Of a stretch of DNA of 11,603 nt, positions 6,403 to 7,746 are shown one piece after another. The stretch spans positions 1-11,603 of the forward strand of contig JAKLQL010000063.1 in assembly GCA_022013395.1 (NCBI GenBank). Direction: 5' to 3'. The position numbers were made by a program, and so were the translations under genes. Source of the stretch: Acetobacterium sp. Its GTDB lineage: Bacteria; Bacillota; Clostridia; Eubacteriales; Eubacteriaceae. Position 1 is the first letter of the stretch, and each line of letters starts with the position of its first letter. Under the pieces are notes generated by a model. That model did not search any database, was not told where the DNA came from, and saw only the letters and a program-made list of their open reading frames with translations.

Positions 6403-7746
6403 TTACTCTTTCTTGTTCAGGGGTTTTTCGGTGGGGTGTTCCACTTGCAATAGTTCATTGGTTAAAACTGAGAGATCTCTAACCCGGTCTTTTAAGACAA
6501 AAACGCAGTCGATTTCTTTGGCTTTTCCGGCCACGATATCTTCGGCTAGAGCCCGACAGCCTGGAGCGCCGCAGGAACCGCAGTCTAGACCGGGAAGTTT
6601 ATCTTCCAGTATTTCGATTTGTTTCATTTTGACAATGGCTTTATTAATGTCCTGATCCAAGGGAACCGGGCTTCTTGGCAGAATGCGTTCTTTAATGTGC
6701 ATCATGCCAGAGTTGTAGATGCTTTTTACATATTCATCTGACATATGAACAATGGATGTCTGCTTCATTTTTTTGGCCCGATCCTGAATATACATTTTGG
6801 CCACATAATTATTTTCTACCGTCAGACAACCGCCGACACAACCGCCGATACAGGCCAGACCTTCGAAAAACTCAATGGTATCCAGTTTACCGCATTCGAT
6901 TTCTTCCAGGACGTTGATGACGTTCTGGATACCGTCGACATGGAGGACATTTTTATTTTTAAGATATTCACTTTCGCCGCCAGAAAGTGCCCAGGAGCAG
7001 GATTCGGGAGTCGTATTATGGATGCCTTCCTGAATCGGGCAGTTGCCGATGTGGCTGGAGAGATCGCTGTAAATATCTTTGATGGCAATGGCGCCATCAA
7101 TCAGATCATATTTATCATATTCGGTGGTAGCCGGATTATTGACCATGGTAGCTTTTGCCGCACAGGGGGTAACGAAAAAGACGCCAATTTCGTTGTTTTT
7201 AAAATTGCCTTCTTCACGCAACCGTTTTCGCACCAATCTGGCGGTCATGGCCATGGGTGATTTTAATCGACAAATGTTGTCAGTGAGTTCGGGAAACCGT
7301 ACCTGAATCAATTTAACAACCGCCGGACAGGCGGACGAAATTAATGGTTTGGGATAGCGTTTAGCATGGTATTCATATTTGAGGGCTTGCCCAACTACCT
7401 CAGCGCCATAGGCCACTTCCACGACCTCATCAAACCCAAGGGCTTTAACGGCCGAAAGGATCTGCGTAATGGAATATTTCGGTTTAAATTGACCGATGAT
7501 TGCCGGTGCCACCAAGGCAACCTTATATTTATAATTCTCCTTTTTTGAGAGGAGATCTGTTTTTGCCAGCTTGGCATGATGGGGACAAATGCGTATACAC
7601 TCGCCGCAATCAATGCATTTCGACTCATTAATAATTGCTTTTCCACCTCGAACTCTGATGGCTCCGGTGGGACAGCTTCTGAGACAGGTGGTACATCCCA
7701 GACATTTTTCCTCATCAAGGTATACAGAATGAAGTAATTTTTCCAT
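6403..7746 (-). CDS. Putative sensory [FeFe]-hydrogenase (HydS-type, group C/D-like) with Fes4 C-terminus
   Basis: This 447-residue protein has an N-terminal 2x[4Fe-4S] ferredoxin (C15/18/21/25 and C44/47/50/54) and an H-cluster domain at about 75-350. It ends in a Fes4-type [4Fe-4S] motif, CGSCGAPGC with a distal Cys (C389, C392, C397, C414). H-cluster loops are degenerate but ligand-complete: L1 SSACPAVV (C140 kept, relay position A139), L2 TPCAAKA (C195, K198) and L3 GLACIGGCVGGC (C299, C303). The relay glutamates of catalytic enzymes are absent (GAEVVGQALK at 114-123). Cys-to-Ala with intact ligands is the pattern described for sensory HydS proteins. Unlike group C it has no PAS domain, which fits the shorter group D. 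Start ATG 7746 follows AAGGTAGG. The gene lies 19 nt after a GHKL ATPase gene. H2 sensing is inferred. A plain ferredoxin-like redox sensor with no H-cluster is the alternative. Confidence 0.88.
   Translation of the reverse strand: MEKLLHSVYLDEEKCLGCTTCLRSCPTGAIRVRGGKAIINESKCIDCGECIRICPHHAKLAKTDLLSKKENYKYKVALVAPAIIGQFKPKYSITQILSAVKALGFDEVVEVAYGAEVVGQALKYEYHAKRYPKPLISSACPAVVKLIQVRFPELTDNICRLKSPMAMTARLVRKRLREEGNFKNNEIGVFFVTPCAAKATMVNNPATTEYDKYDLIDGAIAIKDIYSDLSSHIGNCPIQEGIHNTTPESCSWALSGGESEYLKNKNVLHVDGIQNVINVLEEIECGKLDTIEFFEGLACIGGCVGGCLTVENNYVAKMYIQDRAKKMKQTSIVHMSDEYVKSIYNSGMMHIKERILPRSPVPLDQDINKAIVKMKQIEILEDKLPGLDCGSCGAPGCRALAEDIVAGKAKEIDCVFVLKDRVRDLSVLTNELLQVEHPTEKPLNKKE

Follow-up and report, generated by a model that had tools for sequence, protein, structure and literature searches.

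The window analysed here is the whole 11,603-nucleotide contig JAKLQL010000063.1 (C593) of Acetobacterium sp., taken from a 2.69-Mb draft assembly (GCA_022013395.1; 82% complete, 5.8% contamination). One of its open reading frames (ORFs) encodes a canonical group D (M2e) sensory [FeFe]-hydrogenase, here HydS, of the same kind as TamHydS from Thermoanaerobacter mathranii. Gene order, near-strict co-occurrence and natural one-chain fusions point to the protein encoded just upstream, the kinase-like HATP1, as its partner. HydS itself is of a known kind and a kinase gene nearby is already in print; a HATP1-type kinase as HydS partner is something of which we recognised no description in the open-licence literature. 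The coordinates given for the HydS ORF by a first-pass annotation of this DNA hold, with the strand now fixed as minus, the plus strand there holding stops. The closest species-named proteins are also from Acetobacterium (A. malicum, 92%; A. woodii, 91%). The module consists of the following genes, in order of transcription:

8179..8565, minus: DRT1, DRTGG-like protein of 128 amino acids (aa), with a 4-base overlap with HATP1
7766..8182, minus: HATP1, SpoIIAB-like GHKL ATPase and putative serine kinase, 138 aa, 19 bases upstream of HydS
6403..7746, minus: HydS, group D (M2e) [FeFe]-hydrogenase, 447 aa, ATG start, with two Fer4 sites, H-domain and C-terminal FeS site
5971..6303, minus: DRT2, second DRTGG-like protein, 110 aa
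5241..5969, minus: PHP-family metallo-phosphoesterase, 242 aa

The Pfam scan of HydS found two Fer4 stretches, Fe_hyd_lg_C at residues 75-306 and FeS (PF04060) at 384-416 (48.6 bits, cut-off 23), with no PAS match at E 0.001. This is the group D order of two N-terminal 4Fe-4S sites, H-domain and C-terminal four-cysteine motif without PAS, and the motif, C389-x2-C392-x4-C397-x16-C414, is exactly the Cx2Cx4Cx16C published for group C/D hydrogenases (PMC8163306, in excerpt). Residues were counted in an alignment of 81 group D sequences (80 loci and the window). The H-cluster cysteines C140, C195, C299 and C303 are invariant (81/81), K198 is kept in 78 and replaced by R in 3, and position 139, where Ala replaces the proton-relay Cys, is A in 72, S in 8 and D in one. 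All these features, including the lack of PAS and the C-terminal motif, had been correctly read by the first-pass annotation. Since the pattern is kept in 81 sequences down to about 42% identity, it is more than chance. The group D placement proposed there was likewise borne out in a 43-row tree, with group labels given by domain make-up instead of HydDB references and no Nar1 row, where HydS falls in the group D clade, sister to the PAS-bearing group C (100/100). A group A identity was rejected, as A139, A121 and Y124 stand at CpI Cys299, Glu279 and Glu282 and the NCBIfam group A model gives 109.9 bits against a cut-off of 405.95. The same was done for group B (NCBIfam TIGR04105, 166.8 bits against 450, and apart from HydS in the tree) and for group C, as no PAS domain lies behind the C-terminal FeS site. 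The fold of HydS also speaks for the hydrogenase reading, the comparison covering mainly model residues 3-360 and little of the C-terminal part. The residues predict a complete H-cluster site, which would be loaded and would respond to H2, and the maturases are encoded in the assembly (HydE 579 bits, HydF 563 bits and HydG 444 bits, the last cut by a contig end).

The first-pass annotation had also called this protein relay-dead. The group A relay glutamates are indeed gone, being A121 and Y124 in HydS. However, a separate group D proton path is reported in the excerpted TamHydS work, consisting of E252, E289, S249 and D265, with lower activity upon changes in E252 or E289 (PMC10407848), and HydS keeps it as E258, E295, S255 and D271. 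Within the alignment, E295 is found in 81 sequences, D271 in 80, E258 in 77, and S or T at 255 in 65. We therefore read HydS as having lost the group A proton path and kept that of group D, and the annotation as having recognised a genuine group D HydS with its ligands while misdescribing its relay. In the group D HydS of L065, L082 and L083, R for K198, Q for E258 and S/S/D for A139 are combined, and this subclade may have undergone a real relay loss.

The likeness to TamHydS, as described in excerpts of four papers (PMC8163306, PMC10407848, PMC11803613, PMC13104023), comprises the domain order, the H-cluster ligands, the absence of PAS, the Ala in place of the relay Cys, S/T at the Met353 position (T193 in HydS), the group D proton path, the C-terminal Cx2Cx4Cx16C, and a gene located upstream of a bifurcating hydrogenase and beside a GHKL ATPase gene. 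As a stand-in for TamHydS we used L020 of T. wiegelii, which matches all 24 TamHydS residues named in the papers. HydS is around 50% identical to the T. wiegelii orthologue and differs at 7 of those 24 residues (T193, K43, A128, A121, Y124, C159 and A394 in place of S, R, K, F, E, L and S, respectively). HydS is probably a slow, hydrogen-sensing iron hydrogenase of this known type.

HATP1 is the constant companion of HydS, while the rest of the neighbourhood varies. We inspected the best 80 of at least 590 HydS relatives, counting six-frame ORFs on the same strand and taking a locus as scorable when it had enough flank or contained the gene itself; going by their record titles, they belong to Bacillota lineages, Spirochaetes, Atribacteria, Sumerlaeota and Deltaproteobacteria. 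HATP1 lies upstream of HydS in 79 loci, which are 72/72 of those whose flank reaches 1,200 bases or more and 7/8 of those with a shorter one, and the sole exception, L025, starts 17 bases ahead of HydS. The match edges are 8 to 421 bases apart, with a median of 31.

The association was also seen across 118 genomes of the class. Among these, 67 carry group D HydS, at 68 places, when it is counted from 417 bits upwards and four group C-like places at 207-211 bits are set aside. HATP1, counted from 133 bits upwards with two places near 61 bits set aside, is present in 65 of these 67 and in none of the 51 others (Fisher p 1.7e-31, uncorrected for kinship). At 64 of the 68 places it is 14-261 bases upstream of HydS. 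Of the four misses, HydS is at the contig start in G013 and G046, G117 has HATP1 on another contig and a HydS match without its first 63 residues, and G024 is unexplained. The genome G087 (300 contigs, 4% contamination) carries two separate DRT1-HATP1-HydS modules, on contigs C135 and C288.

Fusions of the two proteins were sought with the kinase and HydS joined as query. Among the 120 matches listed, of 7,990, three are HATP1-HydS single chains: P0299 (596 aa, 20 member sequences), P0343 (595 aa, 62 members) and P0349 (562 aa, one member), the last annotated at its source as an anti-sigma regulatory factor together with a hydrogenase component. All three have HATPase and Fe_hyd_lg_C above the Pfam cut-offs. 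Their HydS part preserves the H-cluster cysteines, K198, A139, E258, D271, E295 and the four C-terminal cysteines, with S at position 193 in all and T at 255 in one. The kinase part preserves E47, N51, H55, D76 and the tested glycines, E49 being S in two. Since P0299 and P0343 are alike, these chains may stand for only two events. DRT1 is in turn fused to HATP1 in loci L022 and L085 and in database proteins; for the L085 fusion, 120 of the 120 matches listed cover at least 85% of its length. Taken together, both kinds of fusion argue for a physical complex of the three proteins.

HATP1 matches Pfam HATPase_c with 34.5 bits and has the GHKL motifs, namely the N-box Glu and Asn, the G1 DxGxG and the G2 glycines, with E47, N51 and D76 found in all 79 sequences. 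The N-box Glu of SpoIIAB is regarded as its catalytic base. The closest solved chains are those of SpoIIAB (E 8e-12), followed by histidine kinases (0.0016 or weaker) and RsbW (0.0018). HATP1 is not SpoIIAB itself, since NCBIfam spIIAB gives only 47.3 bits, under the cut-off of 135. We consider it a putative serine kinase. In comparison with SpoIIAB/RsbW partner switching (SpoIIAB-SpoIIAA-SpoIIE), HATP1 shares the fold family and the N-box, G1 and G2 motifs. In contrast to those systems, no STAS gene or protein was recognised in the HydS module, which has DRTGG and PHP proteins instead, and the kinase goes with a hydrogenase, either linked to it or in one chain.

The two DRTGG-like proteins are related to each other (profile match 99.8%) and both fall under the Pfam DRTGG cut-off of 25.2 bits (22.2 for DRT1 and 19.3 for DRT2). 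Nevertheless, the DRT2 model (pLDDT 97.0) has a TMq of 0.80 to the DRTGG structure 2ioj, and DRT1 matches 2ioj by profile with E 0.0006. We thus assign the DRTGG fold to DRT2 from its predicted structure and to DRT1 by profile. An Asp-x-x-Ser is invariant in both, with S47 in 75/75 DRT1 and S35 in 71/71 DRT2 sequences, and this serine may be either a phospho-site or structural. The domain is known from HPr kinase/phosphorylase, CBS-pyrophosphatase and AF1212, with which DRT2 shares the fold and both proteins have weak profile matches; unlike those, DRT1 and DRT2 are small, free-standing and beside a GHKL kinase and a hydrogenase. No related description of DRTGG joined to a hydrogenase was found in the open-licence literature. 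The PHP protein scores 28.4 bits for Pfam PHP (cut-off 26.4), and ten residues resembling a metal site, which we take to be one, are present in 68/68 sequences. Among scorable loci, DRT1 is found in 74/78 (67/71 with full flank), DRT2 in 70/77, PHP in 69/77, and HATP1 together with these three in 68/75.

The reading that we favour, with moderate confidence, is an H2-gated serine-kinase module, DRTGG-kinase-HydS-DRTGG-PHP, with HATP1 as the direct output of HydS. It builds on the observed sequence features, clade, gene order, co-occurrence and fusions. In this model, H2 would alter the redox and conformational state of HydS, and the change would reach HATP1, the two forming a sensor-kinase pair that in some bacteria is one polypeptide. 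HATP1 would be held with DRT1, also one polypeptide in some bacteria, and would phosphorylate a Ser/Thr target, the simplest candidate being the invariant serine of a DRTGG protein (S47 of DRT1 or S35 of DRT2). The PHP enzyme may reverse or read this phosphorylation, and the circuit could tune the expression or the activity of the neighbouring bifurcating hydrogenase. More tentatively, and with the odds rather against it, the module may be an undescribed serine-kinase switch with HydS as its H2-sensing subunit, in which H2 switches a SpoIIAB-type kinase that is bound to HydS or shares a chain with it, DRTGG proteins stand where the sporulation and stress partner-switches have STAS proteins, and PHP resets the system.

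Some observations weigh against the kinase module as we propose it. The GHKL family also includes histidine kinases, ATPases and plain anti-sigma factors, and no biochemistry of HATP1, DRT1, DRT2 or PHP was found in the literature. The co-occurrence counts carry no correction for kinship, and two HydS genomes have no HATP1 match, G046, where HydS is cut at the contig start, and G024. Three loci (L031, L044 and L057) are devoid of DRT1, DRT2 and PHP, and some others miss some of them. The bifurcating hydrogenase genes are not universal downstream, being found in scorable loci as HydC in 48/61, HATP2 (a second GHKL ATPase) in 49/61, HydB in 44/57 and HydA in 41/55. Eight loci carry the four-gene core and lack hydABC behind it; L075 has these genes divergently upstream, and the other seven have no HydABC within the stretch examined. 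HydABC, present downstream in 5-8 out of 10 scorable loci, need not be the target.

HATP1 could otherwise be the catalytic half of a split histidine kinase, with HydS as input and the phosphate ending on a response regulator. We find this unlikely, although HydDB class C1 is given as putatively histidine-kinase-linked (PMC5037454), the TamHydS neighbour is called a histidine kinase-like ATPase (PMC8163306), both in excerpt, and L031 and L044 have OmpR-type regulators upstream of HATP1-HydS. HATP1 is one bare GHKL domain, with no histidine phosphoacceptor domain matched in the Pfam scan, and the SpoIIAB chains (E 8e-12) are closer to it than the histidine kinases (0.0016 or weaker). Among the 15 loci listed, just two showed response regulators, and L058 has a receiver-like fragment. 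Quite unlikely too is a HATP1 without phosphotransfer, acting as an anti-sigma-like binder or as an ATP-driven assembly or remodelling factor for HydS or HydABC. The family is named anti-sigma regulatory factor or RsbT in source annotations, and the second GHKL protein, HATP2, sits in the hydrogenase operon while its A. woodii counterpart (HydE) is described as not part of the enzyme in the excerpted report (PMC3315566). A mere binder, however, would not need the N-box Glu and Asn, invariant in 79/79, and heterologous TamHydS is stated in an excerpt to be maturable in vitro without the GHKL ATPase (PMC8163306).

The first-pass annotation had suggested the C-terminal Fes4-type motif as an electron outlet, by which HydS would be a slow enzyme passing electrons through this cluster to a partner. 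The motif is intact in the group D alignment and TamHydS turns over H2 both ways (PMC8163306, in excerpt). Nevertheless, this idea is disfavoured and, for TamHydS, largely refuted by excerpted data (PMC13104023): under H2, the H-cluster and one N-terminal cluster are reduced and the C-terminal cluster is not, and the secondary structure shifts with H2 while the C-terminal cluster is not the switch. We consider it very improbable for HydS. Narf/Nar1-like proteins and hydrogenases share H-domain ancestry, which counts for HydS being an iron-sulfur protein of that type without the [2Fe] subsite. To this we give next to no credence: HydS groups with sensory hydrogenases in the 43-row tree (with no Nar1 row), HydE, HydF and HydG are in the assembly, and the orthologue TamHydS holds an H-cluster (PMC8163306, in excerpt).

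Group C hydrogenases (TmHydS, HfsB, R. albus HydS; HydDB C1-C3) are the sister clade and share the C-terminal FeS motif and linked signalling genes. They differ in having a PAS domain and an adjacent SpoIIE-like gene, whereas neither is fused to the group D protein, which is paired with HATP1. The SpoIIE-like gene follows group C HydS at 6/6 places in five genomes including that of the window (Pfam-checked for three), and HydDB class C3 is described, in excerpt, as phosphatase-linked (PMC5037454). In the window's genome (G000), contig C637 (L123:3-2467) carries a PAS-containing group C fragment and, behind it, a SpoIIE-like gene (64.8 bits). A scheme in which this group C phosphatase opposes the group D kinase was considered and dropped, as the phosphatase occurs in 29/67 genomes with group D HydS and 14/51 without, which is no firm link (p 0.086). 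In G088 (contig C19, 32603-36170, minus), a SpoIIE-like gene is directly upstream of DRT1-HATP1-HydS-DRT2 on the same strand, a gene row that reads as phosphatase and kinase arms together.

The [NiFe] regulatory hydrogenase with HoxJ is also a hydrogenase acting as H2 sensor that feeds a kinase (PMC8163306, PMC5707799), although the hydrogenase class is unrelated and HoxJ is PAS-bearing (PMC8163306), as far as the excerpts go. In L031, the group D HydS gene is immediately followed by one for a 637-aa protein (11410-13323) in which the H-domain and FeS site of an [FeFe]-hydrogenase are combined with an MCP signalling domain (106.3 bits); HATP1-HydS is flanked by this hydrogenase-MCP fusion and the OmpR-type regulator. 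In L044, CheW is encoded upstream along with the OmpR-type regulator. Another contig of G000 (C527, 5563-6282, minus; L005) has a weak Fe_hyd_lg_C relative (82 bits, 436-aa frame) with no H-cluster cysteine motifs seen by eye, perhaps a degenerate hydrogenase-like subunit.

All 12 genes picked in the window are on the minus strand. In transcription order, an ORF left open by the window end and an ATPase of the AAA type (AAA_23, 53.6 bits in Pfam), presumably SbcD/SbcC-like by its look, precede DRT1, HATP1, HydS, DRT2 and PHP, and the following features come after the latter:

5185..5216, minus: hairpin, likely terminator, between PHP and hydC; 14-nt arms, 93% complementary, 4-nt loop, then T's
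4486..4956, minus: hydC (NuoE-like) of the bifurcating hydrogenase; domain and family profile matches
3889..4476, minus: HATP2, second GHKL ATPase (HydE of A. woodii); Pfam scan
3528..4001, minus: thioredoxin-fold ferredoxin-like protein (HydD-like); Pfam 23.2 bits, below the cut-off of 24.8
1709..3508, minus: hydB (NuoF-like); domain and family profile matches
1..1758, minus: hydA, catalytic group A hydrogenase; NCBIfam FeFe_hydrog_A6 826.5 bits, cut-off 765; reaches the contig end

The A. woodii operon has the order hydC-hydE-hydD-hydB-hydA (PMC3315566, in excerpt). Given its overlap with HATP2, the start of the HydD-like gene is probably over-called, and that of hydA is probably called too early. 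The hairpin was read from the sequence and not found by the terminator scan, which was near chance (7 found, 7.1 expected), as was the promoter scan (20 found, 14.7 expected). A perfect inverted repeat (5033-5052; 9-nt arms, 2-nt spacer) lies just upstream of a TATAAT-like box before hydC; L006 has a similar, non-identical repeat, and the repeat is a possible operator. The hairpin and T run after PHP, with the TATAAT-like box before hydC, suggest that the sensor and hydrogenase genes are separate transcription units in Acetobacterium. No tRNA was found in the window, nor any Rfam match at gathering scores, and the PADLOC matches were all weak (BrxP 26.2 bits for HydS; PDC-M49A 27.2 and Ppl 22.6 for PHP).

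According to excerpts of earlier work, a histidine/serine kinase gene is often located between sensory and bifurcating hydrogenases (PMC3561251), an ATPase gene was noted beside TamHydS (PMC8163306), and in group C the R. albus HydS was proposed to signal to an adjacent Ser/Thr kinase (quoted in PMC5707799). The 2026 TamHydS paper closes, in its excerpted text, by calling the identification of interaction partners critical. What would be new is the kinase as a dedicated, physically linked partner of HydS, together with a DRTGG-PHP part of the circuit. This kinase, linked to HydS and sharing one chain with it in some bacteria, is what deserves follow-up, and the fusion proteins make the partner idea directly testable. 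It is a candidate answer to how group D hydrogenases without PAS could relay the H2 signal, in organisms that switch between H2 production and H2 use. If the H2-switched serine-kinase reading is true, H2 would be read out as Ser phosphorylation in many anaerobes, including Clostridia, Spirochaetes, Atribacteria and others.
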